Below are positions 22,680 to 49,683 of a DNA stretch of 59,881 bases, one piece after another. Under the pieces are notes generated by a model that worked only from the letters and a program-made list of their open reading frames with translations, did no database searches and was not told where the DNA came from. Positions within the stretch are counted from its first letter, which is position 1. Each line of letters begins with the position of its first letter. The DNA is from Nitrosomonadales bacterium. Its GTDB lineage: Bacteria; Pseudomonadota; Gammaproteobacteria; Burkholderiales; Gallionellaceae. The DNA lies in NCBI GenBank assembly GCA_025350915.1, contig JANXWX010000172.1:1-59881 (forward strand), read 5' to 3'. The position numbers and the translations under genes are program-made.

Positions 22680-22726
22680 TTTATCGGGTGCGTTGGCAAT
22701 AAATGTACTGGCCACTCAATTCAGGA

Positions 22727-24007
22727 TCATGGTGTAACAGGGGAGGGTAGTCCGCCAATAATGCGTACATCGCGTTGCGGGTAGGGTATTTCAATGCCGG
22801 ATTGTTTGAATTGCCGCCATATTTCCATATTGATGTCGGAGCGAAGATTGAGTTGACCTTCTTCCGGGTCGCTAATCCATATGCCCAGTTCGAAGTTGAT
22901 ACCGTTGTCACCAAATGATTTCAAATAGACTTTTGTTTCGGGCGTGGCGAGCACTCTTGCATGACCCACGGCAGCCTGCTTCATGATATCCATCGCACGT
23001 TGCACATCGCTCTGGTAACTGATTTGTATAGGTATGCCGATACGTATTTGACGATTGGAATAGGAATGATTGATGACAGTGGAGCTGACCAGTGTCTCAT
23101 TCGGAATGATAGCCTCGGTGCCGTCATTGCTCATCAACACCATATAGCGGGTGGTTAACTGGGTAACTTTGCCAAAGCGGCCATCAACTGTCAGGACATC
23201 ACCAGGATGGATGGAGCGATCTAGCAGGATGATAAAGCCGCTGACATAGTTGCTGGCAATTTTTTGCAAACCAAAACCGATACCGATACCCAGTGCGCCA
23301 CCAAAGACAGAAAGTACGGTGATGTCGATACCCGCCAAAGGCAGTGCAATCAAAATACCGATTATCACAAGGGCAGACTGGAGCAGCTTGGACAGGACCA
23401 CACGAAAATTCATGTCCATATGTTCTGAAGCCATTACTTTTTCTTTTGCCGTACGCCCTATCCACATCGCCAGGAGCATAGTGACAAGAATGGACAGTAT
23501 GCCATTCAGGATATTCAAAACCGAGATGCGTTGTTGGCCCACGTTAAAGCTCAGGTTATTTAAGGCATCCAGAATATCAGGCAGCAGGCCGGTCAGATAC
23601 AAAGCAAATCCTAACCAGATAGCCGTTGCAATAAATCGCTCGGAGCTGCGTAGCCAACTGCTTGAATTAAATACCTGGCGCAGGGCGTAGACAAAAATCC
23701 GGATCAGCATCATGGCTATCAACAGCGGTACAACGATGTTGAGCAGATTGACCGTCACATACTTTTTGAGTATGAGTCTACCTGCCAGCACCAGCAACAA
23801 GGCAATCAGTGGAAAAGAAAGGCGTGACAGGCTGCCAAATCCGATTTTTGCCATACCCTGCGTTTTGGGTATCCTGACCAGAATCATCTGGTATATACCC
23901 CAGGCTACCAGCAAGCTGAAGGTCAAAACTGCCACCTGCCACAGGATGGTGGTTTGTTCCATGTTGGAAATAAAGTCAGTGAGCAGGTTGCTGGTGGTAA
24001 GGTTCAT
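22727..24007 (-). CDS. MscS-family mechanosensitive channel
   Basis: A 426-residue small-conductance mechanosensitive channel. It has about five membrane helices, with the pore helix region SVFGGALGIGIGFGLQKIASNYVSGFIILLDRSIHPGD near 230-270, then the MscS beta domain (GRFGKVTQLTTRYMVL) and a cytoplasmic alpha/beta domain to residue 426. It is likely the first gene of the run mscS-ank-COG4705-dedA. No obvious Shine-Dalgarno sequence precedes the ATG at 24007. Confidence 0.93.
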   Translation of the reverse strand: MNLTTSNLLTDFISNMEQTTILWQVAVLTFSLLVAWGIYQMILVRIPKTQGMAKIGFGSLSRLSFPLIALLLVLAGRLILKKYVTVNLLNIVVPLLIAMMLIRIFVYALRQVFNSSSWLRSSERFIATAIWLGFALYLTGLLPDILDALNNLSFNVGQQRISVLNILNGILSILVTMLLAMWIGRTAKEKVMASEHMDMNFRVVLSKLLQSALVIIGILIALPLAGIDITVLSVFGGALGIGIGFGLQKIASNYVSGFIILLDRSIHPGDVLTVDGRFGKVTQLTTRYMVLMSNDGTEAIIPNETLVSSTVINHSYSNRQIRIGIPIQISYQSDVQRAMDIMKQAAVGHARVLATPETKVYLKSFGDNGINFELGIWISDPEEGQLNLRSDINMEIWRQFKQSGIEIPYPQRDVRIIGGLPSPVTP

Positions 24008-30095: not shown

Positions 30096-30161
30096 GGTTT
30101 CAATTCCTTTCATTGATATGATTCACAAGCCGGTTTGCGCAATACTCCTGCAAGCACAGAG

Positions 30162-32708
30162 TCATCGCTGCCAAAGAATATGAGCGGCTTCAAGTGGAAC
30201 CGACACGCCTTCGTGCCGCGGTATCAGGCGCGCTGTATAGTCCGATGCCGGGCGAGTCGCATTTACCTCGGCACGGTAAGCGTAACCGTTCGTGGTCCCC
30301 GTCAGTAGTCGCATGCGTTTCATTTCCGGAATTTCCGCGTCGCTACCGCCTTGGTCATTGGCGAAAAGCTCAACCTGCACGGCCTCCGGATCTAGCTCGT
30401 CGAGATAAACTTGTGTTTCAAAAATATATTTATCACCCGTAGTTTCGAGTTTCATTTCGCCGAAGCGAAGTCCGGTCCATTTTTTTGCCAGTTCATGTTG
30501 CCATCGAACGATGTTAACGCCAAGCTTGCCGTTGTCGGCTGCGCGTTCCCGATAGGCAGCCGCTGCCGGCAGGTAATGCTGTTCGGTATATTCGCTTACA
30601 GCGCGATTGGTGGAAAATTGCGGCGTTAATTGCGCCATGCTTGCGCGCATTCTATTTACCCAGGCAACGGGTATGCCCTGTGCGTCACGTGTATAAAACT
30701 CGGCTATCACATCACGTTCAAGCAGTTCATACAGAGCATCGGCTTCATGTGCATCCCACGCCGAGTTGTCGCCGTGTTCCAGTCCGTCACCCAGTGCCCA
30801 GCCTACTTCAGGCGTATAGGCTTCTGCCCACCATCCATCCAGCTCAGACAGATTGATGCCACCGTTGACCAGCACCTTCATACCACTGGTGCCGCACGCC
30901 TCCCACGGCCGCTTTGGTGTGTTAAGCCAGACATCCACGCCCTGCACCAACTGTTCGGTCAGGTCCATGTCGTAGTCACTGAGGAAGATCACATGCGGCC
31001 GGGCTTCTGGCCGACGGATAAACTGCATCCATTGTTTGATCAGCGCTTGCCCCGCCAGATCTGCTGGATGCGCCTTGCCCGCAATGATCAATTGCACCGG
31101 ACGTTGCGGATTGGTTAAAAGTCGAAGTAAACGCTCGGGATTGTGCAACAGTAAATTGGGCCTTTTGTAGCTGGCAAACCGGCGCGCAAATCCCAGTGTC
31201 AACGTGTTGCTGTCAAACAGATGCCGAACGCCTTCGATGTCTTCCTCTGTTGCACCTGAAGTAGCCAGTTGTCTTGCCAATCGCTCGCGCGCGTAATCGA
31301 CAAGTACTGCACTGGTGGCAGTGCGGAATTTCCACAGCCTTTCATTGGAGAGGCTGTGTATATCTTGTGCCAGCGTCTCCGCTTTATCCAGCCAACGCGC
31401 TTTGCCACAGGCTTCAGTCCATAGTTCATCTGCCAGGGCCGAATCCCAGGTTGGCACATGGATACCATTGGTGACATGACCAACCGGTACATGCCGGGTT
31501 GGCCAGCGCTGAAACAGCGGCTCAAACAAATGCCTGCTCACGCGGCCATGCAGGCTGCTAACACCGTTGATCGCGCCACTGCCACGTATGGCGAGATAAG
31601 CCATGTTGAAGGGCTCCTCAGCGTCATTTGGATTTTGGCGTCCCAGTGCGAGTAAATCATGGCGGGTAATTCCGAGCTTTAGCTCGGCGTAACCGGTGAG
31701 GTACTGCTCTATCAGTGCGGGGGCAAAACGATCAAATCCTGCTGCAACAGCAGTATGTGTGGTGAAGAGATTGCCAGCACGGGTAACGGCCATTGCAACC
31801 TCGAATGTTGTCCCAGTTTCCATCATAAAGCTGCGCGCGCGTTCCAGTACTGCGAATGCGGCATGCCCTTCATTCAAGTGGCAAACTTCGGGCTTGATAC
31901 CAAGTGCCGTAAGCAAGCGCCAACCACCAATGCCGAGCAGCATTTCCTGCTTGAGACGCAACTCCGGACCGCCGCCGTAGAGCTCGCTGGTAATGCCGCG
32001 ATGCGCGGGATAGTTGGCGGCATCATTGCTGTCAAGCAAATACAGTTTCACACGCCCAACCTGAACCTGCCAGGCACGCAGCCACACCGAGTAACCGGGC
32101 AAGGCTATTTCCAGACGTAACCATTCTCCATTGGTATGGCGCAAAGGTGTGATGGGGAGCTGCCCCGGATCGTTGTAAGGGTAGAGGGCTTGTTGCGCAC
32201 CTTCCTTGTCGATCACCTGCCTGAAATACCCCTGTTGATACAGTAGCCCGATCCCAATTACCGGTACACCAAGATCACTGGCGGCCTTAAGCTGATCGCC
32301 TGCCACATTACCCAGTCCGCCAGAGTAAATGGGCAGTGCCTTGCTCAACATATATTCCATGCTGAAATAAGCGACACAACTCAGTTTGGATCGCGGGTAT
32401 GCCTGCTGAAACCATGCGGGTGCTTCGGCTGCCTCCCTTCTTGCCTGCAGCAGTGTATCAATTTTTGTGCGGAACTCAGGATCGGCCAACACCTGCTTGA
32501 GTTTTTCACGTGAGACGGTTTGCAACACTACCCAGGGGTTTTGCGTTAACGCCCACAGTTCCGGATCAAGCTTACGCCACACCTGGTCGGTAGCGTGGTT
32601 CCATGATGAACGCATGTCGAGAGCAAGTTCAGACAGCGCATCAAAACCCTCGACATCAGCGCATAAAAGTTGCGCTTTAGGATGACCGGATTGCAGCGGT
32701 TCGCTCAT
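30162..32708 (-). CDS. glgP: Alpha-glucan (glycogen/maltodextrin) phosphorylase
   Basis: Releases glucose-1-phosphate from glycogen using phosphate and pyridoxal phosphate. The 848-residue protein is of the DUF3417-bearing type, with the N-terminal domain at about 10-115, the glucan-binding core (SMEYMLSKALPIYSGGLGNVAGDQ near 122) and the cofactor lysine in ACGTSGMKVLVNGG near 605. CAGGAGGAG precedes the ATG at 32708. It is 66 bp upstream of xfp and supplies the sugar phosphate for that branch. Confidence 0.94.
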   Translation of the reverse strand: MSEPLQSGHPKAQLLCADVEGFDALSELALDMRSSWNHATDQVWRKLDPELWALTQNPWVVLQTVSREKLKQVLADPEFRTKIDTLLQARREAAEAPAWFQQAYPRSKLSCVAYFSMEYMLSKALPIYSGGLGNVAGDQLKAASDLGVPVIGIGLLYQQGYFRQVIDKEGAQQALYPYNDPGQLPITPLRHTNGEWLRLEIALPGYSVWLRAWQVQVGRVKLYLLDSNDAANYPAHRGITSELYGGGPELRLKQEMLLGIGGWRLLTALGIKPEVCHLNEGHAAFAVLERARSFMMETGTTFEVAMAVTRAGNLFTTHTAVAAGFDRFAPALIEQYLTGYAELKLGITRHDLLALGRQNPNDAEEPFNMAYLAIRGSGAINGVSSLHGRVSRHLFEPLFQRWPTRHVPVGHVTNGIHVPTWDSALADELWTEACGKARWLDKAETLAQDIHSLSNERLWKFRTATSAVLVDYARERLARQLATSGATEEDIEGVRHLFDSNTLTLGFARRFASYKRPNLLLHNPERLLRLLTNPQRPVQLIIAGKAHPADLAGQALIKQWMQFIRRPEARPHVIFLSDYDMDLTEQLVQGVDVWLNTPKRPWEACGTSGMKVLVNGGINLSELDGWWAEAYTPEVGWALGDGLEHGDNSAWDAHEADALYELLERDVIAEFYTRDAQGIPVAWVNRMRASMAQLTPQFSTNRAVSEYTEQHYLPAAAAYRERAADNGKLGVNIVRWQHELAKKWTGLRFGEMKLETTGDKYIFETQVYLDELDPEAVQVELFANDQGGSDAEIPEMKRMRLLTGTTNGYAYRAEVNATRPASDYTARLIPRHEGVSVPLEAAHILWQR

Positions 32709-32850
32709 GACTCCTCCTGTTGGTATGGTCAGGACAGGCTACGGTAAGTGTCTGCCGGAATTTATTTTTGGACAATAAAATATATTGCCATTGTTGCGCG
32801 GTTGAAAATAATTTTTCATAAAGCAGTCGAAAAAAAAGCGTTTTTCCCTT

Positions 32851-33939
32851 TTATTTGGACTGCGACAGTACGTCAGTTTTAGCGGCAATACGGGCAAGAA
32901 GATCGTGCCAGGATTTTGTAAAGGATGCGGTACCTTCTTCCTGAAGCTCGGCAGCAAGTGCGTCTACGGCCACATCTTCGCGCGCCAAACTTGTGATTAC
33001 TCTGTCTGCATAAGCTTCATCCTGTGTTAAGGCGCTGCCTATGCTGTCATGCGTGCCTAACGCAAGCAGTGTTTTTTCAGGAATGGTATTGACTGTATTC
33101 GGTGCGGCGAGCGCATCCACATAAAGGGTATCCGGAGCAGCGGGATCCTTGGTTCCCGTGCTGGCCCATAGCAACCGCTGAGGCAAGGCTCCGGCTTTGG
33201 CCAGTTTTTGCCAGCGTGCTGATGCCAGCAATTCACGATAAGCTTTGTAGGTGCGTATCGCGACGGCAATACCCAGGCTGTTGTTTTTCAATTCAACTTG
33301 CAAATTGCTTTTGGCCGCGACATCCCAGCGGCTGATGAAGACTGATGCCACAGAGGCGATCTTTGGATCTCGTCCTGCAGCAATGCGACGTTCGATGCCG
33401 CGCATATAGGCTTCAGCCGCTGCGAGGTAATGCCCGGCTGAAAACAGCAGCGTGACGTTCACCGGTACACCCGCAAAGATGGCTTCTTCGATCGCCGGTA
33501 TTCCGGCGGGCGTACCGGGAATTTTAATGAAAAGATTTGGGCGCTTTGCATCGGCATGTAACTGCAGTGCAGCCCTGATGGTGGCGGCCGTATCATTGGC
33601 AAGCAGTGGTGAAACTTCCAGCGAGACCCAGCCGTCGATACCGCCGGTGGCATCATATACAGGACGGAAAAGGTCGGCAGCCTGTTTCAAGTCTTCGAGT
33701 GCGAGTTCAAAAAATAATGTCTCGCCAGATTTTCCCGCCAGCATTTTTGTGCGTATCGCGTCATCGTAGAAATCGCTATTCTTGATCGCATGTTCGAAGA
33801 TGGTGGGATTGGAGGTTAGTCCCGTCACCGACAATTCCTTTATATAACGTGCCAGCGTGCCGCTGCTCAGCAGCCCACGCGTGATGTTGTCGAGCCAAAG
33901 ACTTTGGCCGAGATTGTGCAGTTGTTGTGTGGCTTTCAC
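32851..33939 (-). CDS. tal: Transaldolase
   Basis: Pentose-phosphate enzyme exchanging a dihydroxyacetone unit between sedoheptulose-7-P and glyceraldehyde-3-P. The 362-residue protein is of the long bacterial class: [13 protein letters not shown] near 39-51, the Schiff-base lysine in LFIKIPGT near 136-143 and a conserved SRWDVAAKS near 205. The start is GTG at 33939, overlapping the zwf stop (GTGA), with AAAGGA 6 nt upstream, so it is coupled to zwf. Confidence 0.95.
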
Positions 33940-35348
33940 TTCTTGTCCTTTATCAATTTAGGGTTGTGCCAGTGACTGTCTGCCGCAATGAGTGCATCGG
34001 CTTGTTTCGGTCCCCAGCTACCGGCTTTGTAGCGGTAAACCTCACGCGGTTTATCCAGCACGGGATCAACCACTGCCCAGGCAGCCTCGATCGCATCCTC
34101 GCGTGTGAAGAGCCCGCCATTGCCGGCCATTGCGTCGGTTAACAGCCGTGCATAGGGTGATTCATTTCCCAGCTGTTCTTCCAGCAGGTAGAGCTCGTGC
34201 TGATCACCGATAAATTCTTCGCCCGCACGTTTGACGCGTGCGGCGAGTGCGACGGCGGTATTGGGCGAGAGCCGAAAGCGAACATAATTTGCGTGCCCGT
34301 TTGTAGGCGCGGAGTCGTCAAATAGCCGTTGCGGTGGCGGCTTTAATTCCACCAGCACTTCGGCAGCGGTAGCGGCCATGCATTTGCCGGAACGCAAATA
34401 CCACGGCACGCCTTGCCAGCGCCACGAATCAATGTGTAGCTTTAGCGCGCAGAACGTTTCAACCCTGGAATTTTTCGCGACACCGTGCTCCTTGCGATAG
34501 CCGGCATACTGGCCGTACACCATATCGTCCGGCTGCAAGGGACGCATTGCCTGGAAAACCTTGGCCTTTTCGTTGTGTACCGCGGCATAACCCTGGAATA
34601 CAGGCGGCTCCATTGCCAGCAGCGCGACTATCTGGAACAGATGATTCTGGATCACGTCGCGCAGACAGCCTGCGCTTTCGTAGAACACACCACGGCCTTT
34701 TACACCAAAATCTTCGGAAAGCGTAATCTGCACACTGGCCACATTGTTGCGGTTCCAGATAGGCTCCAGAAATGAATTGGCAAAGCGGAAATAGAGGATA
34801 TTCATGATCGCCTCTTTGCCGAGATAATGGTCGATGCGGAAAATCGAGTCTTCCGGAAACACAGACAGCGCGATGTCGTTGAGTTCCCTTGCGGAAGCGA
34901 GGTCGCGTCCGAAGGGCTTTTCCACAATAACGCGTGCCTGTGCGGCCAAGCCCGCTGCCGCGAGGTTTTTAATCACTGTTGCGAATAGTGCAGGTGGAAT
35001 TGCGAGATAGTGAGCCGGTCTTTTGGCGTTGCCCAGCGCTTGATAGAGCGACATGAATGTAGCCGGGTCGTTGTAATCGCCTTTTACGTATTGCAGCAGC
35101 GAAAGCAGGTGACTGAGCGCCTTGCGGTCATCAGTTTTTCCGGCTTCACTGATGCTGTCTTTCACACGTTTACGCAATTGTGCCTGGCTTAATTTGGAGG
35201 AGGCCACGCCGATTACCGGCACGTTAAGTGCACCGTGTTTGACCATCGAATAGAGCGCCGGGAAAATCATTTTGTATGCGAGATCACCCGTTACACCGAA
35301 AATGACCAGTGCATCGGCACAACTGTTACGGCAATTGCTTGTGTTCAT
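33936..35348 (-). CDS. zwf: Glucose-6-phosphate 1-dehydrogenase
   Basis: First enzyme of the oxidative pentose-phosphate path, making NADPH and 6-phosphogluconolactone. The 470-residue protein has the dinucleotide loop [17 protein letters not shown] near 18-34 (Tyr-Lys-Met where many have Lys-Arg-Lys) and the active-site [13 protein letters not shown] near 170-182. The ATG at 35348 follows AGGGAG by 5-6 nt. It is coupled to tal by a 4-nt overlap. No 6-phosphogluconolactonase or gnd/edd lies in the window. Confidence 0.95.
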
Positions 35349-35401
35349 CAAAGCTCCCTGTTATTTTTTATCGCGTCAGGCTGCTATTTAATTTTGCAGG
35401 G

Positions 35402-35731
35402 TCAGGCTTCAATATTTTCACCCAGCGCCCGCAGCCGCGTTTTAAGCTGTGTAATCTCGTCCAGCAGTTCCAGCACCAGCGCGGTGCCGGCAACATCGAT
35501 ATGGAGATCGCGCTGCAAGCGCAATGCAGCTCGTGAACGTTGCAGGCTGGAACCGGTGAAAATCCAGCGTGAAGGTTCACGACCCTGCGGTTCCAGCACG
35601 CCAAAATCAACCAGCTCGATTATCCGTTCTGCATGCACCGCGCAGGCACGACAGAGGTCGGCGAGCGTCAATTGGGCTTGTTCTTCCAGTATGCATATTG
35701 CAAATGAGGGCAGGTTATTTTCAGTATTCAT
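35402..35731 (-). CDS. cbpM: Chaperone modulator CbpM
   Basis: A 109-residue MerR-like helical protein of the CbpM family (LTLADLCRACAVHAERIIELVDFGVLEPQG near 22-51, then an arginine-rich helix and a C-terminal coiled coil). CbpM binds the J domain of CbpA and restrains it. It starts 3 bp after the cbpA stop, so production of the two is coupled. Confidence 0.9.
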   Translation of the reverse strand: MNTENNLPSFAICILEEQAQLTLADLCRACAVHAERIIELVDFGVLEPQGREPSRWIFTGSSLQRSRAALRLQRDLHIDVAGTALVLELLDEITQLKTRLRALGENIEA

Positions 35732-35734
35732 GTC

Positions 35735-36673
35735 TCAAACTCCCAGTTTGGTGCGTGGATTGAAGTTAAGTTCCATTCCCATTTTTTTGTAGAACGCTTT
35801 GGCTGCATCGGTATTTGCCGGTGGCAGCGCGATTGTCAAAATCACGTAGCAATCGCCGGGCGGGTTTCCCGGTATGCCACGGCCTTTCAAGCGCATTTTG
35901 CGCGCGGACACTGAACCCTCGGGTATCTTGAGTTCCACGATGCCTTCAGGTGTGGGTACCTTAACGGTGGCACCCAGTGCAGCCTCCCACGGGGCCACCG
36001 GCAAGTCGAGATAGATGTCGCGGCCATCGACCCGGTAAAGGGGGTGCGGCTGGAATTCAACTTGCAGATACAGGTCTCCCGACTTGCCGTCGTGTCCGGG
36101 GCTGCCCTGGCCACTGAGACGGATGTGCTGTCCTTCGCGAATGCCTTTGGGTATGGTGACATTGAGCACGCGTTCACGGGTGACGACATGACCCTGTGCA
36201 TCCACAGCGGGTGCATGCAGCGTAATGGTGCGTGTTGCGCCGTGGAAGGTGTCTTCCAGATTGATTTGTATCTTGGCGTGGTGGTCTTCTCCTTTGGCAT
36301 GTTGGGTGGAGCGTTCGCCGCCGGCGCGGAAACCTTTGCCAAACAGAGACGAGAAAAAGTCGCTGTAATCTTGACCGCCATCCCCGGTGTAGCCGCCACC
36401 GCTGAATTCAAAACCGGTGTCCCAGTTTGGTGGTGGTCGAAAGTCCTGTCCCCCCTTGTAATTGGCGCCAAGCTGGTCATAGGCAGCACGCTTCTCGGCA
36501 TCTTTCAGTACTTCATAGGCTTCGCCAATCTCCTTGAAGCGTGCTTCCGCATCTTTTTCTTTGCTGACATCGGGGTGATATTTTCTGGCCAGCTTGCGAT
36601 AGGAACGCTTGATTTCATCCTGGGTTGCATCACGCGCAACTTCCATGATCTTGTAGTAGTCCTTGAATTCCAT
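35735..36673 (-). CDS. cbpA: DnaJ-class co-chaperone CbpA
   Basis: A 312-residue type II J protein that stimulates DnaK. The J domain (1-70) has the HPD tripeptide at 33-35; a Gly/Phe-rich linker (about 75-120, FRPPPNWDTGFEFSGGGYTGDGG) follows, then two C-terminal substrate-binding domains. There is no zinc-finger CxxCxGxG repeat, which separates it from DnaJ. CAGGAG lies upstream of the ATG at 36673. Its location with fermentation genes suggests a role in starvation or low-oxygen stress. Confidence 0.94.
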   Translation of the reverse strand: MEFKDYYKIMEVARDATQDEIKRSYRKLARKYHPDVSKEKDAEARFKEIGEAYEVLKDAEKRAAYDQLGANYKGGQDFRPPPNWDTGFEFSGGGYTGDGGQDYSDFFSSLFGKGFRAGGERSTQHAKGEDHHAKIQINLEDTFHGATRTITLHAPAVDAQGHVVTRERVLNVTIPKGIREGQHIRLSGQGSPGHDGKSGDLYLQVEFQPHPLYRVDGRDIYLDLPVAPWEAALGATVKVPTPEGIVELKIPEGSVSARKMRLKGRGIPGNPPGDCYVILTIALPPANTDAAKAFYKKMGMELNFNPRTKLGV

Positions 36674-36754
36674 CTGGCGGGTACTCCTGTAATGAAAATG
36701 TGATCGTCGTTTTTAAATCCGGGCTGATAGTTAAAAGTATACGCCTCTGACATG

Positions 36755-37528
36755 TCAGCGCAATCGTGGCTGCCGGTAAAACAGAGCCAGTTGTTTATGC
36801 ACTGCTGGACAACATTCCTCCAGTAATGCCGGTGCGGTAAAAAAATACTCGCTTATAACCGCAAAATATTCTGCCGGGTTGGTCGCAGCATAGGAATTGA
36901 TCACGGTAGATTCGCCTGCTTCCACTTGGCGGCAAAGTGTTTCATAGGCGGTATTCAATGCTGCGGCCCAGTCTTGCAGCTTCATGCCACCCCGCAACGG
37001 CGGAAGACCATTTGTCCTGTTGTTGAGCCCGTCAAGTTTGTGTGCAAACTCGTGTATCACCACGTTGTGCCCGGCACGGGATGCATAGCTGTCACGTTCG
37101 ACATCATCCCAGGATAAAATCACCGGGCCGCGCAACCACGATTCGCCGCTTAAAACATTTGCATCATTATTGACCAGGCCGTTTTCATCACGCTGCTCAT
37201 GCACAACGATGAATGCGCCCGGATAGAGGATGACTTCAACCCAGTTGTCAAAGTAATCAATATCAAGATTCAATATCAGCAAGCAGGCTTGAGCTGCCAC
37301 TATGATGCGCATGGGCATGGTCACATTCAAACCGTGCGCGCCATTAATAGATTTGTTATGCAGAAACCATGTCGTCAGTTCGCGCAAACGCGCCATTTGC
37401 ACGGCATCCAGTCCCTGCAGGACGGATAAGCGCCGGGTGACCTTGTGCCAAAGTGCAAGGGGAATACGATTGCGCCGCAGAACGCGACGCATATTCCAGC
37501 GACGAAGTGTTTCACTAATGGAGTTCAA
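36755..37528 (-). CDS. mtfA: MtfA-type zinc peptidase
   Basis: A 257-residue M90-family metallopeptidase. The zinc site HEFAH is at 159-163 (HEFAHKLDGLNN), with a downstream glutamate in AVISEYFFTAP. In E. coli MtfA binds the repressor Mlc and so affects the glucose phosphotransferase system, and it has aminopeptidase activity. The start is TTG 37528 or the ATG at 37492; neither has a strong ribosome site. Its position among glycogen and pentose-phosphate genes is suggestive of sugar control. Confidence 0.9.
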   Translation of the reverse strand: MNSISETLRRWNMRRVLRRNRIPLALWHKVTRRLSVLQGLDAVQMARLRELTTWFLHNKSINGAHGLNVTMPMRIIVAAQACLLILNLDIDYFDNWVEVILYPGAFIVVHEQRDENGLVNNDANVLSGESWLRGPVILSWDDVERDSYASRAGHNVVIHEFAHKLDGLNNRTNGLPPLRGGMKLQDWAAALNTAYETLCRQVEAGESTVINSYAATNPAEYFAVISEYFFTAPALLEECCPAVHKQLALFYRQPRLR

Positions 37529-37552
37529 CGTTTATCTATCAAGGTGGTTGCG

Positions 37553-37738
37553 TCACTGCACCGTAATATGGCCGAGTGCGCCATGCATAGCCGCCAGTAT
37601 GAGTTTGTCTGCGGCTTTTTGGTTAACTTCGGGAATATCCCAGTCGAAGATGGCACGGTATTTTTCAAACAACTTGCGCATATCCGCAATAATTGCGTCG
37701 CGATGCGAATCCAGTTCAAGCTGTTCCATATTTTTCAT
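37553..37738 (-). CDS. Hypothetical small protein upstream of mtfA
   Basis: A 61-residue acidic helical protein (MKNMEQLELDSHRDAIIADM at the start) of unknown family. AAGGAG precedes the two adjacent ATGs (37741, 37738). The gap to mtfA is 24 bp and to DUF1840 is 38 bp, so it is within the operon. Confidence 0.65.
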   Translation of the reverse strand: MKNMEQLELDSHRDAIIADMRKLFEKYRAIFDWDIPEVNQKAADKLILAAMHGALGHITVQ

Positions 37739-37776
37739 CATGATGCTCCTTTCAGAATATGTTTACGCCGGTTATG

Positions 37777-38073
37777 CTATTTCCACATTACATTTGCTTT
37801 TGCCTTTGCGGCGGCTTGCAGCAGGTTGAACAACGGGATTGCGCGATTGGCCATGCTTACTCCCGGCTCGTCCGTATCCGGGTTGTTGATCCGTTCAGCA
37901 TCATGTGCCGCATTAATTGCGGCGGACAGGCGGTTGAGTGCAGCAGGAACATCTTCTGCCATCACCGCACTTGGCACGGTTCCGCTGTGCCCCATCATTT
38001 TTAGTAAATTTATGGCGACATCGCCGAACATCGTGATATCGGCATAGGCATCGGTCGAAAATGCCACCAGCAT
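37777..38073 (-). CDS. DUF1840 family protein
   Basis: A 98-residue protein with the DUF1840 start pattern (MLVAFSTDAYADITMFGDVAINLLKMMGHSG) and a C-terminal helix. The family is mainly betaproteobacterial and has no known function, which is one clue to the host lineage. AAGGAG lies 6 nt before the ATG. It lies between ackA and the small protein upstream of mtfA. Confidence 0.9.
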   Translation of the reverse strand: MLVAFSTDAYADITMFGDVAINLLKMMGHSGTVPSAVMAEDVPAALNRLSAAINAAHDAERINNPDTDEPGVSMANRAIPLFNLLQAAAKAKANVMWK

Positions 38074-38218
38074 CGTGTTCTCCTTGAATAAGAATTTAAA
38101 AGCGTGTTCGGTTAGCGCAAGCCAGTCGATATGGAATTATCTGCGGTCAGCTGGCCTGTGTATGTACGCTGGCGAACAATTCGAGATTGGCAAGAATATT
38201 TTATTGTCAGCAAGATTT

Positions 38219-39418
38219 TTACGCGGTAGTGGAAAGTTCCAATATCTGACAGACCGATTTGGCGATCATGAGTTCCTCATCCGTGTGAATAACGCGCACA
38301 GTGACCCGGCCCCCGATCCTGGAAATTACGCCGGCATGGTTGGTATTAAGTTCTGCATTGAGCTCAATGCCAATAAATTCCAGGCCGGCACATATCCGCG
38401 CACGGATGTCGGCAGCGTTCTCGCCGATACCGCCGCTAAACACCAGGGTATCCAGCCCATTCAGAGCAGCGGCATAGGCACCAATCCATTTTTTTGCCTG
38501 GTAACAAAATAGTTCGACAGCTTCGGCTGCACGGTTGTCAGTTGCGGCGTGTTCTGTCAGATCATGCATGTCAGAGCTAAAACCTGATACACCAAGCAAA
38601 CCGGATTCATGGTTGATAATCTGGTTAAATTGTGTGGGTGTCAGTTTTTCGGATTGCATCAAATACCAAGCCACACCCGGATCGAGGTCTCCTGTGCGGG
38701 TGCCCATCACCAGCCCGCCAGCCGGGCTAAATCCCATGCTGGTATCCTTGCTCTGCCCCCTGTGCACAGCCGCCATGCTCGCGCCATTGCCAAGGTGTGC
38801 AAGAATCACGCGTCCTTGCGCGACTTCAATTCCTGCCTGCCGTTCAAGCTCCTGCATCAAGTATTGATAAGACAGCCCATGAAAACCATAGCGCTGTATG
38901 CCAAGTGCATCATAGCGATGGGGGACAGGCAAAATTTTTGCAACACGTGGCAGGGTGTGGTGAAACGCGGTGTCAAAGCAGGCGATCTGAGGCAGTTTGG
39001 GAAAGCGCTGTTGAAATTGTTCGATCAGTTTTATTTCCAGCGGCAGATGCTCAGGATCATAGGCGCTGATTTGTCGCAGCTCATCGAGCAATGCCTGTGT
39101 GACAATTTCGGGCTTGCTATGCCGCAACCCATGCACAACGCGATGGCCGATCGCGACCGGCTTTGCATTGCCAAGATGAGGCTCAAGCCAGGTGATCAAT
39201 GCGTTTGTGGCAGCGGTATAGCCGCCTGCATCAATAGCGACACTGTTTTTTTGATTGTTGCTTGAGTCGGTATATGTGAGTGTCGCACCGCTTAAGCCGA
39301 TGCGTACAATTTTTCCGGACAGTTGTTTTCTGAGTGAATTATTGATTTGGTATAACGCAAATTTGATGCTCGATGAGCCGCCATTAATCGTGAGTACGCT
39401 TCCAGTTGCAGGGCTCAT
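38219..39418 (-). CDS. ackA: Acetate kinase
   Basis: Converts acetyl-phosphate plus ADP to acetate plus ATP. The 399-residue protein has the phosphate-1 motif TINGGSSSIKFALY near 9-22, FDTAFHHT near 147-154, AHLGNGAS near 204-211 and FSPAGGLVMGTRTGDLDPG near 227-245. AAGGGA is upstream of the ATG at 39418. With xfp it gives ATP from sugar phosphates without oxygen. No phosphotransacetylase gene is adjacent, consistent with acetyl-phosphate coming directly from phosphoketolase. Confidence 0.96.
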   Translation of the reverse strand: MSPATGSVLTINGGSSSIKFALYQINNSLRKQLSGKIVRIGLSGATLTYTDSSNNQKNSVAIDAGGYTAATNALITWLEPHLGNAKPVAIGHRVVHGLRHSKPEIVTQALLDELRQISAYDPEHLPLEIKLIEQFQQRFPKLPQIACFDTAFHHTLPRVAKILPVPHRYDALGIQRYGFHGLSYQYLMQELERQAGIEVAQGRVILAHLGNGASMAAVHRGQSKDTSMGFSPAGGLVMGTRTGDLDPGVAWYLMQSEKLTPTQFNQIINHESGLLGVSGFSSDMHDLTEHAATDNRAAEAVELFCYQAKKWIGAYAAALNGLDTLVFSGGIGENAADIRARICAGLEFIGIELNAELNTNHAGVISRIGGRVTVRVIHTDEELMIAKSVCQILELSTTA

Positions 39419-40674: not shown

Positions 40675-43600
40675 TTAAAGCAAAACGCGTTCTATGCCGC
40701 CATGATTGGCCTTCTCCACATATTCCGCCATCCAGTTTTTTCCCAGAATATGCTTGGCCATTTCTATCACGATGTAATCAGATGTCGTTCCGGCATCATC
40801 GTTATAGCGTGACAAGCCCTGATTGCAGGATGGACACGAAGTGAGGATTTTGATCTCACCGCTGAAACCGTCGGCGCGCAGAGCATCAGCGCCGTTGCGC
40901 ATTTCTTCTTCCTTGCGGAAACGCACCTGGGTGGCAATATCCGGACGCGAAGCGGCAAAGGTACCTGACTCGCCACAGCAACGTTCATTCAGTGCAACCG
41001 CTGTACCCATCAGTTTGTTTACCACCTTGAGCGGGTCGTAGGTTTTCATCGGGGTATGGCAGGGGTCGTGGTACATATAGCGCGTGCCGGTGATGCCTTC
41101 GAGCTTGACATCTTTTTCCAGCAGGTATTCGTGGATGTCCAGCAAACGACAACCTGGGAAAATTTTATCGAACTGGTATTTCAGCAGCTGATCCATGCAG
41201 GTGCCACAGGACACAATCACGGTTTTAATGTCGAGATAGTTCAGTGTGTTGGCGACGCGATGGAATAGCACACGATTGTCTGCAGTGATCTGGCTGCCCT
41301 TGTCATCCTGGCCGGACGACGTTTGCGGATAACCGCAGCACAGATAGCCGGGGGGCAATACGGTGATCGCACCGGTTTCATAAAGCATCGCTTGTGTCGC
41401 CAAACCCACCTGGCCAAACAAGCGCTCGGAACCGCAGCCGGGGAAATAAAACACGGCTTCGGAATCTTCACTGGTTTTGTGCGGATTGCGGATGATAGGG
41501 ATGACGGTGTTGTCTTCTATATCCAGCAACGCGCGTGAAGTTTTCTTCGGTAGGCCGCCCGGCATCGGTTTGTTGATGAAGTGGATCACCTGTGACTTAA
41601 CGATCCCGCCAAGATAAGGAGCGCGTCCTACGGTGGAGGGCGGGTGTGCAATCTGCTTGCGCAGCAGGCCAAGCCGTTTTGCAACCTGATAGGTGAGGCG
41701 TTGCGCCTTGTACGCCCACTCGATCATCACCTTGCGTACCAGCTTGATGGTAAAGGGGTTGGTGGCATTGAGGAAGAACATGCCCGCCGTGGTGCCGAGA
41801 TTGAATTTTTTCTTGCCCTGTTTGCGCAGGAAGTTGCGCATCGCGACGGATACATCGCCGAAATCAATATTGACCGGGCAGGGATTCAGACATTTGTGGC
41901 AAACGGTACAGTGATCCGCGACATCCCCAAATTCATCAAAATGCGCGATGGAAATACCGCGTCGCGTTTGATTCTCGTAAAGGAAAGCCTCGATCAGCAA
42001 CGAGGTGGCGAGGATCTTGTTGCGCGGCGAATACAGCAAATTGGCGCGCGGCACATGGGTGGCGCATACCGGTTTGCATTTGCCGCAACGCAAGCAGTCC
42101 TTGATGGAGTCGGAGATATGGCTTAACTCGCTTTTTTCCAGAATGATACTTTCCAGCTCCATCAGATTAAAGCTGGGGGTATAAGCGCGCTCCAGATTGC
42201 CACCAGCCAGCAGCTTGCCCTTGTTGAAACGTCCCTCCGGGTCGACCCTGTTTTTATATTGGGTGAACTCGCTGATCTCTGCGCTCTCCAGAAAATCAAA
42301 TTTGGTAATGCCAATGCCATGCTCGCCGGAGATAACGCCGCCCAGGTTTTTAGCCAGATGCATGATGCGCTCAACCGCGTGGTTGGCCTGCTGCAACATG
42401 TTGTAGTCATCGGAGTTGACCGGGATATTGGTGTGCACATTGCCATCGCCTGCGTGCATGTGCAGTGCGACAAACACACGGCTTTTCAGAACGCTCTGGT
42501 GAACGGCATTGCATTGTTCCAGAATAGTCTGATAGGTGCGGCCGCTGAATAACTGGCTTAGCGGCTCGCGCAATTCAAGTTTCCATGAAGCGCGTATGCT
42601 GTGGTTTTGCAGCGCGTGGAATACAGACGCACCCTCTCCCGGCCTGCGGCCACCCTCTCCCACAAGTGGGAGAGGGGATATTTCGCTCCCTCTCCCGCTT
42701 GCGGGAGAGGGCTGGGGAGAGGGTATGAAAGGTAACGAATTGATCGGTGCATCCAGATTGTCCTGCAGCCACTGCCAGCGGGCACGTACTTCGGCCAATA
42801 AATCGCGTGCCTGTTGCGGGCGGTTACCCAATAATTCGGCACAGCCCAGCTGTGCATCGTCCTGATAGAACAGCGGCAGCTCGCCCGCAAAAAATTCGTC
42901 CAGTGCATCAACCAGCTTCAGTTTGTTATGCAGCGATAATTCGATATTGATCCGTTCCACGCCATCGCAATAGTCACCCATGCGCGGCAACGGAATCACC
43001 ACGTCTTCATTCAGTTTGAACGCATTGGTATGTTTGGCAATCGCGGCTGTGCGTGCACGATCCAGCCAGAATTTTTTGCCTGCTTCGGCCGAGACGGCAA
43101 TAAAGCCTTCGCCGCTGCGCAGATTGGCCAGCCTGACAATTTCCGATGCAGCCTGTGCCACCGCATTTTCATCATCACCCACCACATCGGCGAGCAAGAC
43201 CATTTTTGGCCGCGCCGCGCGTTTTGATTTGGTTGAGTAACCCACGGCCTTCAGATAGCGGTCATCCAGATGCTCCAGCCCGGCCAGTAGCGCTTGCGGA
43301 TGCGCGTCGATGTAGTTTTTGATCTCGACGATCGACGGTACCGCTTCACGCACCTGGCCAAAAAACTCCAGGCATACCGTGCGGGTGTAAGTGTGCGCAC
43401 GGTGCAGAATAAATCGTGCCGAGGTGATGATGCCGTCGCAACCTTCTTTCTGAATACCGGGCAGGCCGGATAAAAATTTATCGGTAACGTCTTTGCCGAG
43501 CCCTGTCTTGCGGAATTTACCGCCGGGAATTTTTAAAATTTCCGGTGTGCCGTGCGGTGTTGTTTCGTCCGCTTCAAAACGGCTGATGCGGAAAGTGGTC

Positions 43601-44574
43601 ATCTCGACATCGTGGATCTTGCCCAGATTGTGACCGAGGCGTTCCACCGTCATCCACAGGCCGTCCGGCGTGACCATGCGCCATGAGGCGAGGTTGTCCA
43701 GCGCGGTGCCCCACAGCACGGCTTTTTTGCCGCCCGCGTTCATTGACACGTTGCCGCCTATGCACGACGCATCCGCCGAGGTGGGATCAACCGCGAACAC
43801 CAGTTTATTATCGTCCGCGCGATCCATCACGCGGCGTGTCACCACACCCGCACCGCAGTGTATGGTGGCAGTCGGTTTAGCCAGGCCGGGCAATTGCAGC
43901 ATCTCTACATGCGACAGAGATTCCAGTTTTTCGGTATTGATCACCGCAGACAGTTTATCCAGCGGTATTGCGCCACCGGTGTAACCGGTACCGCCACCGC
44001 GGGGGATGATGGTGAGTTTTAGCTCGATACAGGCGCGCACCAGATGTGCGATTTCGGATTCGGTATCCGGATGCAGCACAACAAACGGATATTCCACGCG
44101 CCAGTCAGTGGCATCGGTGACGTGTGAAACGCGCGCGAGTCCGTCAAACTGGATATTGTCACTGCGCGTTATTTTACTCAGCACGCGCAATGCTTTTTTG
44201 CGCAATTGCAGCGTGGCTTCAAATTCGTCGGCAAAGGCATCTACGGCGCTATGGCTCAGTTCCAGCAGGCGTTTGACCGCTTCGTTACTCTGGCGGCGTT
44301 CTTCGATGGCATGCAGGCGATGGCGCAAAGCGGTGATCAGGGCGGCACGGCGACGGCGATTGCCGAGTAAATCATCCTGCAAATACGGGTTGCGCGAGAC
44401 TACCCAGATATCTCCCAGTACCTCATACAACATGCGTGCCGAGCGGCCAGTACGGCGTTCGTCGCGCAGCGTGTTGATGATCTCCCACCCCTCGGCGCCA
44501 AGCAGGCGAATAACAATTTCGCGGTCGGAAAAAGAGGTGTAGTTGTAGGGGATTTCGCGTAAACGAACGGTCAT
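40675..44574 (-). CDS. DUF3683-type FAD-linked oxidase/Fe-S (GlcD-GlpC-like) fusion oxidoreductase
   Basis: A 1299-residue fusion. The N-terminus (about 1-150) is the DUF3683 region; an FAD-binding PCMH domain follows ([23 protein letters not shown] near 195-217), then an FAD-oxidase C-terminal domain (to about 800). Two [4Fe-4S] motifs come next ([16 protein letters not shown] and [15 protein letters not shown]), then two CCG domains ([31 protein letters not shown]). This is the architecture of D-lactate/glycolate-type dehydrogenases that pass electrons to quinone; the substrate is not known. Residues of about 617-648 come from an inserted palindromic element (42631-42724) that keeps the frame. 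It is membrane-associated without membrane helices. Confidence 0.92.
42631..42724. repeat. REP-like double palindrome inserted in frame in a coding sequence
   Basis: Two perfect 11-bp-arm palindromes, CCCTCTCCCAC-AA-GTGGGAGAGGG (42653-42676) and CCCTCTCCCGC-TT-GCGGGAGAGGG (42688-42711), are bracketed by outer arms ACCCTCTCC and GGAGAGGGT (42631-42639, 42716-42724). Read on the minus strand it encodes a Pro/Ser/Gly-rich segment ([21 protein letters not shown]) with no stop. It is the only copy I see in the window. Such elements are dispersed in many bacterial genomes, usually between genes. Confidence 0.85.
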
Positions 44575-45808: not shown

Positions 45809-45833
45809 AGCAGTAAAAGGTAACCACTGCTTA
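45809..45833 (-). terminator. Weak hairpin at the end of mtkB
   Basis: AAGCAGT (45809-45815) and ACTGCTT (45827-45833) form a 7-bp stem with an 11-nt loop directly at the mtkB stop codon; on the minus strand it is followed by TTTATGG. The T-tract is short, so termination may be partial. Confidence 0.35.
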
Positions 45834-46718
45834 TAAACCTGCCAATACCTTGGCAACTGTTTCACCCATGGCGGAAGGTGTGGGGCAGATGGTGACCCCC
45901 AGTTCTTTCAAGAGGGCGACTTTTTCTGCCGCACTTTCGCCCGCCGATGAAATGATCGCGCCGGCATGGCCCATACGGCGACCCTCCGGTGCGGTCAAGC
46001 CTGCGATATAGGCGACCAGCGGTTTTGTCATGTGATCGCGCGCATACATACCGGCATCGATTTCTTGCTGCCCGCCGATCTCGCCTATCATAAGCACGAC
46101 TTTGGTGTCGCTGTCTTCTTCAAATTTTTCCAGAATATCGCGGTGCGAACTGCCGTTGATCGGGTCGCCGCCAATGCCGACAGAGGTGGAGATGCCGATA
46201 CCCAGGGCTTTCATCTGGTCGGCAGCTTCATAACCCAGGGTGCCCGAGCGGCCTACAACACCGACATGTCCGCGCATATAAATATGCCCCGGCATGATGC
46301 CCAGCATCGCTTGGCCGGGGCTGATCGTGCCGGCGCAGTTGGGGCCGGTCAACATCATTCTGTTTTGTTTTGTCGCGCGCCGCAGATAGTTTTTAACTTT
46401 CATCATGTCCTGGGTGGGGATGCCGTCGGTGATCGCCACGCAGTACTGGATACCCGCATCGGCGGCTTCCATGATCGAGTCTGCCGCAAAAGCGGGCGGC
46501 ACAAATATAATGCTTGCTTCGGCGCCTGTTTCGGCTATTGCCTGCCTTACCGTATTGAAAACAGGCAGGCCCAGATGGCGTTGCCCGCCCTTGCCGGGTG
46601 TGACACCCCCTACTACATTGCTGCCGTAGTTAATCATGTCCTGGGCATGGAAAGAGCCGATCTTGCCGGTGAAGCCCTGCACGATAATGCGCGTGGTTTT
46701 ATTGATCAGGATAGCCAT
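45831..46718 (-). CDS. mtkB: Malate-CoA ligase alpha subunit (malate thiokinase small subunit)
   Basis: Forms malyl-CoA from malate, CoA and ATP with MtkA. The 295-residue protein is homologous to SucD: CoA-binding GFTGKIGSFHAQ near 16, GRSGTLGYEAADQ near 156 and the phospho-histidine loop EGRRMGHAGAIIS near 246. PINGSSHRDILEKFEED is typical of the Mtk branch (SucD has PIPGS). Assignment as malate rather than succinate ligase rests also on the neighbouring malyl-CoA lyase. Its start overlaps the mtkA stop by one base (TAATG). Confidence 0.88.
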   Translation of the reverse strand: MAILINKTTRIIVQGFTGKIGSFHAQDMINYGSNVVGGVTPGKGGQRHLGLPVFNTVRQAIAETGAEASIIFVPPAFAADSIMEAADAGIQYCVAITDGIPTQDMMKVKNYLRRATKQNRMMLTGPNCAGTISPGQAMLGIMPGHIYMRGHVGVVGRSGTLGYEAADQMKALGIGISTSVGIGGDPINGSSHRDILEKFEEDSDTKVVLMIGEIGGQQEIDAGMYARDHMTKPLVAYIAGLTAPEGRRMGHAGAIISSAGESAAEKVALLKELGVTICPTPSAMGETVAKVLAGL

Positions 46719-47926
46719 TATTCGCCCCTCCTGCGTTCTGCCATATTACTTTCGGCGGCGACTACTGCATTGCGTGCCTTCACCGCTTTTTCGGCTGCAT
46801 CCGCCAGCGTTTCAGCCATGATAATCGGCAGGCCACTGTCGGCAATAATCTTTCGGCCCGCCTCGACATTGGTACCCGACAAACGCACGATCAGCGGAAT
46901 TTTCATGTCGATGTTGCGCACCGCGGATACCACACCCTCGGCGATCCAGTCGCAGCGGTTGATACCGGCGAAGATATTGACCAGCATGGCCTTGACCCCC
47001 TTGTCGGCCAGTACCAGCCGAAACGCTTTTTCGGTACGCTCGGCGGAGGCGCCACCGCCCACATCGAGGAAGTTTGCCGGCTCACCGCCAGCCAGCTTGA
47101 TCATGTCCATGGTGGCCATGGCCAGACCTGCACCGTTGATCATGCAGCCGATATCGCCGTCCAGTCCGATGTAACTCAGGTCGTGGTCCGCCGCCGCCAC
47201 TTCACGCGGGTCGATTTGCGAGTTGTCGCGTAATTCAAATATCTTGTGGCGGCGAAACAAGGCATTGGTATCAAAATTCATTTTCGCGTCCAACGCGATC
47301 AATTCCCCGTTGTTTGAAACTACCAGCGGATTGATCTCCAGCATGTTGGCATCAAGATCACGCAAGGCACGGTAGCAGCCCTTGATGGTTTTGATCGCCT
47401 GATTCAGGAGAGAATCATCTATGTCCAAAGCGAACGCCATTTCGCGTGCCTGAAACTCCTGCAGGCCGACAGCCGGTTCGACGTAGATTTTTTTGATCAC
47501 ATCCGGATGGGTTTCAACCAGTTCTTCAATTTCCATACCACCCTGCGAAGAGCCTATCATCACGATGCGCTCGGTGCTGCGGTCGACCAGTATGCAAAAA
47601 TAAATTTCACGCGCGATGTCGGTTGCCGCTTCGACATACACTCTGGAACACACTTTTCCGGCCGGACCAGTTTGACGGGTAACCATGATCTTGCCCAGCA
47701 TATCCTGCGCGGCGGCTTCGACTTCGTCGTGGGTTTTGCAGAGCCGGATGCCGCCTGCTTTGCCGCGCGCGCCGGAATGTATCTGTGCTTTTACCACCCA
47801 CACCTTGCTGCTGATTTCTCTGGAACGTTGCACGGCCTCTTCGGGGCTATGTGCCACACCACCTTCAGCGATTCTGACACCATATCCTGTCAGAATTTCT
47901 TTTGCCTGATACTCATGGATGTCCAA
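46718..47926 (-). CDS. mtkA: Malate-CoA ligase beta subunit (malate thiokinase large subunit)
   Basis: ATP-grasp subunit of malate thiokinase. The 402-residue protein begins [17 protein letters not shown] and has [13 protein letters not shown] near 47-59, EINPLVV near 199 and [13 protein letters not shown] near 278. It resembles Methylobacterium MtkA in sequence stretches I remember ([25 protein letters not shown]), more than SucC. The start is TTG 47926 with GGGAG 7 nt upstream. It follows mcl by 83 bp and is coupled to mtkB. Confidence 0.9.
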
Positions 47927-48009: not shown

Positions 48010-48957
48010 TTATTTTTTGTTTTTGATTGCGGCCACGGTATTGACGATATTGTTGGCCATTTTTTCCGAGGCGGCATCGATCATGCGTCCATCCAGCGTC
48101 GCAGCGCCTTTGCCCTGGGCTGCCGCCTCTTTCAACGCGGTCAAAATGCGATGCGCTTTTTCCACTTCCGCCGCGGGCGGGGTAAACACTTCATTGGCGA
48201 GGGCGATCTGCGAGGGGTGTATGGCCCACTTGCCTTCAACACCCAGGGCCGCTGCACGGCGGGCAGCGAGCAAATAAGATGCCGGGTCTTTGATGTCGCC
48301 AAACGGGCCGTCAATAGGGCGCAAGCCATAGGCACGGCAGGCAACCGTCATGCGGCTAAGCGCAGCATGCCACTGGTCACCCGGATAGTCTGGATTGAGG
48401 CCGCCGATATTGGTTGTTCTTGCACGCGTGCTGGCCGCATAATCGGCGACACCGAAGTGCAGGGCTTCGAGACGCCCGCTTGCGCCATTGCGTGCGATGT
48501 CCTCGACATTGGCCATGCCCAGCGCTGTTTCGATCAGAGCCTCGATGCCTATTTTGTTGTGCAGATTCTGTTGTAATTCGAGCTGGTTCAACATGGCTTC
48601 CACCATGTACACATCGGCATAAACACCCACTTTTGGAACCAGTATCGTGTCAATTTTATGGCCGGCCTGTTCCACCAGGTCTACCACGTCACGCACCATG
48701 TATTGCGTGTCCAGCCCGTTAATGCGCACCGAAAGCGTGATGCCGCGTGCCTTCCAGTCCAGATCGTTGATCGCCTCGATAACCAGTTTGCGTGCCTTGG
48801 TTTTGTCGTCCGGTGCGACCGCATCTTCAAGGTCGAGAAAGACAAAATCTGCGCCGCTGTTTAATGCTTTCTCAAACATTTCGGGATTGGCTCCCGGTAC
48901 CGCAAGATCACAGCGTTGAACGCGTTGTACAGAAGCCTGATATAAAGTGTGACTCAT
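48010..48957 (-). CDS. mcl: L-malyl-CoA/beta-methylmalyl-CoA lyase
   Basis: Cleaves malyl-CoA to acetyl-CoA and glyoxylate. The 315-residue protein is of the HpcH/HpaI-CitE fold: [15 protein letters not shown] near 34-48 (acidic Mg ligands), [11 protein letters not shown] near 77, the glutamate in [12 protein letters not shown] near 137-148 and [20 protein letters not shown] near 168-187. The last stretch marks the Mcl branch rather than citrate lyase. It leads mcl-mtkA-mtkB; a consensus FNR box lies 75 bp upstream of its start. Confidence 0.92.
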
Positions 48958-49031
48958 TTATTTTCCAGAAAATTTAAGGATAGGTTGAAGTAAAGCGAAT
49001 TCGAATAGTAACTTATCTTTTGAAATTGTTT

Positions 49032-49045
49032 TTGATATTTATCAA
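49032..49045. promoter_or_regulatory. FNR/ANR-type box upstream of mcl
   Basis: TTGAT-ATTT-ATCAA is a perfect match to the 14-bp FNR/ANR consensus. On the minus strand a TACTAT hexamer at 49010-49005 would place the box centre near -40.5, a class II activator position for mcl-mtkA-mtkB. On the plus strand the thpR -10 (TATAAT, 49081-49086) would put it near -54, a poorer fit. Confidence 0.7.
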
Positions 49046-49080
49046 TGGCCGATTAAGAAAACTTAAGTATGTAAGGTTTT

Positions 49081-49086
49081 TATAAT
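49081..49086 (+). promoter_or_regulatory. Candidate -10 element for thpR
   Basis: A perfect TATAAT lies 54 bp before the thpR GTG start. I see no good -35 hexamer 17 bp upstream, so the promoter may be weak or activator-dependent. Confidence 0.35.
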
Positions 49087-49140
49087 GCCATATAAATTTT
49101 GTTGAAAACTCATGACATGCTGAATATTAAGGGAACCAAA

Positions 49141-49683
49141 GTGGTTGTAGCTGAAGTAAAAAAACAGGCCCGTGTTTTTTTCGCCCTATGGCCGGATTTA
49201 CACGCAAGGGCGGCTATCTCATCGTGGCAAGGGCCCTTGAGCAATCTAGTTGGCGGGCGTGGGCTGCCGGCAGAAAATCTGCACAATACCCTGGTGTTTT
49301 TAGGCGCTGTGGCGATTGAGCGTTTGGAAAATTTGCTGTTGGCTGCACAGGAAGTGAGTGGTGGAAAATTTCAGCTTGTATACACCATGGCCCGTTACTG
49401 GGGACACAGTCAAATCGTGTATGCCGCCCCCGGGATTGTACCGCCTCAATTGACGCAATTGGCGCAAACCCTGGAACACGCATTGCTGCGCCACCACTTT
49501 GCTTTTGAGCGGCGAATTTATAAACCACATGTTACTTTGTTGCGCCATGCAAAATGGAGCGATACTCCTCTGCCACCGATGGAACCGGTTAAGTGGAAGA
49601 TGCAGGATTTTGTGTTGTTGCAATCGCATGGTGAGGGTCAGGGCGTGCATTACGAAGTATTGGCACGCTTTCCTTTGCGTTAA
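49141..49683 (+). CDS. thpR: RNA 2',3'-cyclic phosphodiesterase (2'-5' RNA ligase family)
   Basis: A 180-residue 2H phosphoesterase. The two catalytic motifs are HNTL at 48-51 (LHNTLVFLG) and HVTL at 130-133 (KPHVTLLRHA). The family opens or ligates RNA ends bearing 2',3'-cyclic phosphates; the cellular role is uncertain. The GTG at 49141 is chosen as start because AAGGGA lies 6 nt upstream and it gives the normal length; the frame is open 42 nt further upstream without a ribosome site. Confidence 0.92.
   Translation: MVVAEVKKQARVFFALWPDLHARAAISSWQGPLSNLVGGRGLPAENLHNTLVFLGAVAIERLENLLLAAQEVSGGKFQLVYTMARYWGHSQIVYAAPGIVPPQLTQLAQTLEHALLRHHFAFERRIYKPHVTLLRHAKWSDTPLPPMEPVKWKMQDFVLLQSHGEGQGVHYEVLARFPLR

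Follow-up and report, generated by a model that had tools for sequence, protein, structure and literature searches.

A predicted FNR-activated class II promoter at the malate-cleaving mcl-mtkA-mtkB operon of a Gallionellaceae bacterium

In the compilation given in PMC3688515, 19 of the 23 FNR-activated promoters of Escherichia coli with a known start have the FNR site at -41.5 ± 4, and the sites of focA-pflB and yfiD are both listed at -40.5. Malyl-CoA lyase (Mcl) adjoins candidate malate-CoA ligase (Mtk) genes in Methylococcus capsulatus (MCA1739-1741), as described in PMC517821. An E. coli strain lacking aceEF, poxB and pflB is rescued by Mtk and Mcl together, as reported in PMC5964204. No description of FNR control of mcl was found in those parts of the openly licensed literature that were among the matches listed (including PMC4344238 and PMC11218250), and the terms 'malyl', 'serine cycle' and 'glyoxylate' are absent from the main text of the Gallionellaceae pangenome paper (PMC10734462).

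The DNA considered here, called the window, is the whole stretch of 59,881 nucleotides that was analysed. It comes from a relative of Gallionella, an iron oxidiser, and carries an mcl-mtkA-mtkB operon preceded by a perfect FNR/ANR-type box. On the basis of the arrangement of this region and its comparison with related genomes, we hypothesise that the operon is probably driven by an FNR-activated class II promoter.

The operon and its predicted promoter

The first gene of the operon, mcl (48010-48957, minus strand), encodes a malyl-CoA lyase. Its best match among solved structures is 5ugr, a malyl-CoA/beta-methylmalyl-CoA lyase (E 4.5e-112). It is followed by mtkA (46718-47926, minus strand), the malate-CoA ligase beta subunit, which scores 687.3 bits against an NCBIfam cut-off of 604, and then by mtkB (45831-46718, minus strand), the alpha subunit; the ends of mtkA and mtkB overlap by one base. 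The name mtkB is given by the place of the gene after mtkA, its own family match being succinate-CoA ligase alpha. The matches of MtkA and Mcl bear out the identification of the operon made in a first-pass annotation, and three serine-cycle genes, mtkA, mtkB and mcl, are thus present in it.

Upstream of mcl lies a divergent gene for an RNA 2',3'-cyclic phosphodiesterase (thpR-like; 49141-49683, plus strand). Its frame is open from 49099, and 49141 was chosen as the start. The gap between the two genes is then 183 bp long with 27% G+C (141 bp with the start at 49099). It contains the box TTGATATTTATCAA at 49032-49045, which reads TTGATAAATATCAA on the mcl strand and fits TTGATnnnnATCAA, the binding consensus of FNR class II promoters. 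On the mcl strand, 21 bp separate the box from TACTAT (49005-49010, minus strand), the predicted -10, and the transcription start predicted from this -10 is at about 48998 (minus strand), which places the centre of the box at about -40.5. The sequences and coordinates given in the first-pass annotation for the box and for TACTAT are exact, and the class II geometry that it proposed is supported, relative to this predicted start.

The predicted -10 requires some care. TACTAT matches the -10 consensus at only four of six positions, and its quality was rejected as proof: hexamers with at least 4/6 are found at the same distance in 8 of the 20 site-directions of the ten perfect boxes in the genome (3/10 at boxes inside genes), and the chance of a hexamer as good as TACTAT at a spacing of 20-23 is about 0.4 in sequence of 30% G+C. 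Confidence in this -10 therefore comes from its retention in relatives, as part of the block GTTACTAT discussed below, rather than from its own score, and the earlier assignment of TACTAT stands on that footing.

No -35 above 3/6 was found in the window sequence at the mcl promoter. The best remaining candidate is AAAACA (49027-49032, minus strand; 3/6, spacing 16), and an initial view that the promoter has no -35 at all was softened to allow for it. A simple promoter scan of 48900-49200 returned no sigma-70-like promoter on either strand (shuffled sequences give an expectation of 1.2). Class II FNR promoters usually have a poor -35, and hence need the activator.

Several other features of the window may be recorded. 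The strand of the malate operon also encodes, downstream of it (40675-44574), a 1299-aa protein in which a GlcD-like FAD part is joined to an iron-sulfur part. Its substrate could be a 2-hydroxyacid with a link to glyoxylate metabolism. Genes for phosphoketolase, phosphorylase, transaldolase, glucose-6-phosphate dehydrogenase and acetate kinase are clustered at 27729-39418 (minus strand), and the window scan placed no FNR box there, whether perfect or with one mismatch. An ankyrin-repeat gene lies directly 3' of a mechanosensitive-channel gene on the same strand (21717-24007), and an Eco29kI-type restriction endonuclease gene (597-1244) is found at the window edge.

FNR and the other boxes of the genome

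The first-pass annotation had named the absence of an FNR/ANR homologue as a refuter, and one such homologue is present, a protein of 238 aa on contig C51. Its N-terminal region contains CxxCx7C, and a fourth cysteine aligns with the central cysteine of a solved FNR. The recognition helix reads METASR, aligned with VETISR of the solved FNR (ETxSR). From general knowledge of FNR, we take these to be the cluster-binding and DNA-reading residues.

The fnr gene is divergent from ccoN (above the NCBIfam ccoN cut-off), and two perfect boxes lie between them. The box nearer to ccoN has a perfect TATAAT at a distance of 22 bp, corresponding to -41.5. This region is an internal standard, within the same genome, for the predicted design of a class II site. 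It resembles the mcl region in having perfect boxes, one of them lying 22 bp from a -10 (21 bp from the predicted -10 at mcl), and differs from it in having two boxes, a perfect TATAAT and a respiratory target.

Within the window, the mcl box is the sole perfect instance of TTGATNNNNATCAA. Matches with one mismatch number three, against 2.79 expected, and so only the perfect match stands out. Calculated from base composition, a gap as long and as rich in A+T as this one would contain a perfect box with a chance of about 0.001. For a given -10, the chance that a perfect box falls at one of four class II spacings from it is about 2e-5, a value that is valid only if the -10 is fixed independently of the box; over an assumed 1,500 promoters the same chance becomes about 0.03.

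Genome-wide, the pattern has ten perfect sites, and the same pattern read backwards has none. The open frames around all ten were inspected: five sites lie inside larger frames and five are intergenic. Of the latter, the fnr/ccoN gap contains two and the rluC/rne gap one, a further site lies upstream of coxB, and the fifth is that of mcl. The identical 14-mer TTGATATTTATCAA is also found once within an unrelated reading frame on contig C81, and a perfect box alone therefore proves nothing. A looser pattern, TTGAYNNNNRTCAA, gives 21 sites in the genome against 6 for a reversed control. It was rejected as a route to a wider regulon: all 11 of the extra sites are inside open frames, and no regulon member was added.

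The perfect boxes are intergenic more often than the looser ones (5/10 against 0/11; Fisher p 0.012). Compared with the coding fraction alone, their intergenic share has p 0.004, or 0.018 with the fnr/ccoN pair counted once; when A+T richness is allowed for, these values become 0.06 and 0.13, coding fraction and composition being taken from the window in all these tests. The expected number of intergenic perfect boxes in the genome is 0.56 from base composition, or 1.5 once the excess observed in coding sequence is used for scaling. The intergenic excess beyond the A+T effect is marginal, and the mcl box by itself is moderate evidence. Its spacing adds to this, provided that the -10 is fixed independently.

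Two of the other intergenic boxes are of note. The box upstream of coxB, in a cytochrome c oxidase operon, is at L004:1856-1869 (contig C8). We take a short antisense frame over it as spurious, and coxB is likely to be a second respiratory target of FNR. The box in the rluC/rne gap (L005:4001-4014, contig C12) is perhaps a chance occurrence. Its best -10 at a class II distance scores only 3/6, from which it follows that chance intergenic boxes probably occur in this genome.

Homologous promoters and alternative explanations

Among the family's 158 genomes, Mcl of this type (E <= 1e-130) is encoded by six, one of which is that of the window. Four further genomes of the genus, two of them less than 90% complete, were covered, and the operon was found in none. 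Within the family its distribution is patchy and its neighbours differ among the relatives, as if it had often been gained or lost. In a tree of 86 Mcl proteins, the window sequence groups with five Gallionellaceae sequences (support 100/97, with the bootstrap not fully settled). The family is taken as Gallionellaceae on account of this grouping, and because the mcl promoter in three of its genomes is identical to that in named Gallionella records.

The promoters of these five relatives are informative. The block GTTACTAT is common to three of them (L133, L134 and L136), at 52-57 bp from the ATG, compared with 53 in the window. All three have TTGACC, a -35 matching at 5/6, at a spacing of 16-18, and the window box overlaps the place of this TTGACC. 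In the remaining two (L135 and L137) no block of this type was found within 250 bp. None of the five mcl promoters has a perfect box, the nearest site having two mismatches. This site is in L134, which reads TTGATAACGATTGACC where the window reads TTGATAAATATCAAAA and therefore departs from the box at two positions. In a hand alignment, L134 and the window differ in 16 of 43 columns, one of them a gap. What is new in this comparison is that three of the relatives share the predicted -10, and have a good -35 where the window has the putative FNR site. We read this as an ordinary promoter that would have become activator-dependent in the window lineage. The change may also have run in the reverse order, or the relatives too may hold a weak FNR site; because of sites such as that of L134, a recent gain of the box is not certain.

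A wider survey covered the 300 bp upstream of mcl in the best 80 of 583 loci, from named genomes (L053 and L078 have less than 300 bp upstream). Their Mcl identity is 82-89% (tblastn), and they comprise methanotrophs, ammonia oxidisers and three Gallionella records, each of which is the genome of one of the five relatives. The nearest operons, among these best matches, are those of Gallionellaceae, Nitrosomonadaceae (including Nitrosomonas) and Methylococcales. The earlier remark that the genes are best known from organisms with the serine cycle or the 3-hydroxypropionate cycle is in this respect incomplete. None of the 80 loci has a perfect box upstream of mcl. One-mismatch boxes occur in four, against 2.3 ± 1.3 expected, which is no enrichment, and conservation of the box across mcl loci was accordingly rejected. 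It follows that FNR control of the mcl operon is not general, and the predicted FNR site at mcl looks particular to the window lineage. Conservation in relatives, which the first-pass annotation had proposed as a check, thus fails for the box both in the family and beyond. Its interpretation as a whole is partly supported: it gains from the FNR gene, the ccoN standard and the promoter comparison, and loses from this absence of conservation.

These results bear on other explanations of the box. It may be a palindrome that arose by chance in A+T-rich intergenic DNA, with mcl being FNR-independent and transcribed either from a different promoter or from the -10 described above, together with a weak -35. 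Between 0.56 and 1.5 intergenic perfect boxes are expected by chance, five perfect boxes do lie inside genes, the rluC/rne box is without a -10 above 3/6, and the mcl box is found in none of the 80 best loci. A chance palindrome would nevertheless have had to fall at a class II distance from the -10 shared by the relatives, and exactly at their -35, and we consider this explanation possible but doubtful. It is improbable that FNR binds the box and represses mcl, or that the gene it tunes is not mcl but the divergent one for the RNA phosphodiesterase. At -40.5 a site covers the -35 and is in the usual place for activation (PMC3688515), which argues against repression. The box does lie between divergent genes, and TATAAT at 49081-49086 (plus strand) is a good hexamer and the likely -10 of the phosphodiesterase gene, but the centre of the box would then be at about -54.5 from the start of that gene, which is not a usual activating position. 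The reading of the box as an old element of the thpR promoter was likewise rejected: none of eight regions upstream of thpR homologues has a site with zero or one mismatch, and one of the eight has a site with two. The first of these counts also tells against tuning of the divergent gene.

The reader of the box could also be another regulator of the CRP/FNR family, for example a nitric-oxide regulator of the DNR/NnrR type, although this is highly improbable. Only a single gene in the genome is over the cut-off for either of the helix-turn-helix families; a second, weak match is Lrp-like and was rejected as a further CRP/FNR regulator. Regulators of the DNR/NnrR type are known to read boxes near-identical to those of FNR, and a second regulator could be missing since the genome is a draft in 263 contigs (estimated as 99.93% complete).

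Possible role and comparison with described systems

We therefore return to activation of mcl by FNR. At low oxygen, the single FNR would keep its [4Fe-4S] cluster and dimerise, and the dimer would bind TTGATAAATATCAA, centred at about -40.5. Bound FNR would recruit RNA polymerase to a promoter with a -10 and without a good -35, and the outcome would be that, when oxygen is low, malate is cleaved to acetyl-CoA and glyoxylate at the expense of ATP. In evolutionary terms, an ordinary promoter with TTGACC as -35 and TACTAT as -10 would have lost its -35, and the right half of the box would have formed in its place. The sequences themselves show the box and its spacing, the FNR gene, the -10 shared with relatives, the lack of a good -35 and the enzyme families; we infer that FNR binds, that mcl responds to oxygen, where transcription starts, and in which direction both the flux and the evolutionary change run. 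The mcl promoter is likely to be an FNR class II promoter, a known kind, at an uncommon target, and it is plausible that a low-oxygen switch on a malate-cleaving operon represents a rewiring.

The host genome provides some metabolic context. It encodes RuBisCO, PEP carboxylase, a MOFRL-type glycerate kinase and malate synthase. Two of these, PEP carboxylase and the glycerate 2-kinase, are serine-cycle genes unlinked to the operon, so that the earlier statement that the window holds no other serine-cycle gene is uninformative as regards the genome. On contig C234, a run of genes includes those for GlcE and GlcF, both above the respective cut-offs, and for GlcD, which falls slightly short of its own, together with malate synthase and two dehydrogenases, one for 2-hydroxyacids and one of the 3-hydroxyisobutyrate/tartronate-semialdehyde type. 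In the genome, no match to glyoxylate carboligase reaches the cut-off (TIGR01504, 711.2). The best match scores 266.8 bits over positions 3-413 of 589, in a frame cut by a contig end, and this partial frame scores 604 for acetolactate synthase, above the cut-off for that family. A complete natural malyl-CoA-glycerate pathway is hence not supported. Separation by oxygen of Mtk/Mcl from malate synthase would be sensible, because running them simultaneously would waste ATP.

A more far-reaching reading, which we regard as rather improbable when taken as a whole, is that a Calvin-cycle autotroph has brought the cleavage of malate under the control of its oxygen sensor. At low oxygen, acetyl-CoA would then come from PEP carboxylase, Mtk and Mcl, without the CO2 that is lost when pyruvate is decarboxylated, in the role that FNR-activated pyruvate formate-lyase has in E. 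coli, and the glycolate operon with malate synthase would work in the opposite direction when oxygen makes RuBisCO yield glycolate. The switch would have arisen by the change from a -35 to a half-box, and glyoxylate would leave by an exit other than glyoxylate carboligase. On this reading, the synthetic malyl-CoA-glycerate scheme would have a natural relative. The proposed FNR control of mcl, if true, would in itself link oxygen sensing to malate cleavage in a RuBisCO-bearing member of the Gallionellaceae, and would provide a clear example of regulatory capture, an FNR box standing here where the relatives have an ordinary -35.

The synthetic pathway, as described in PMC5964204, couples malyl-CoA-glycerate reactions to the Calvin cycle. 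RuBisCO, PEP carboxylase, Mtk and Mcl are encoded here too, as are a glycerate kinase and a dehydrogenase of the tartronate-semialdehyde-reductase type; the host differs in having no glyoxylate carboligase over the cut-off. The mcl-mtkA-mtkB operons of Nitrosomonadaceae and Methylococcales, including MCA1739-1741 (PMC517821), are orthologous to that of the window, and differ from it in having no perfect FNR box upstream, among the best 80 loci. On the regulatory side, the closest counterparts are E. coli focA-pflB and yfiD as listed in PMC3688515, which have the consensus TTGATnnnnATCAA at -40.5, the position predicted here, and whose target enzymes give acetyl-CoA at low oxygen, as those of the mcl operon would. 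The mcl operon would differ from these class II targets in cleaving malate rather than pyruvate, in belonging to a RuBisCO-bearing member of the Gallionellaceae, and in that its regulation is a prediction.
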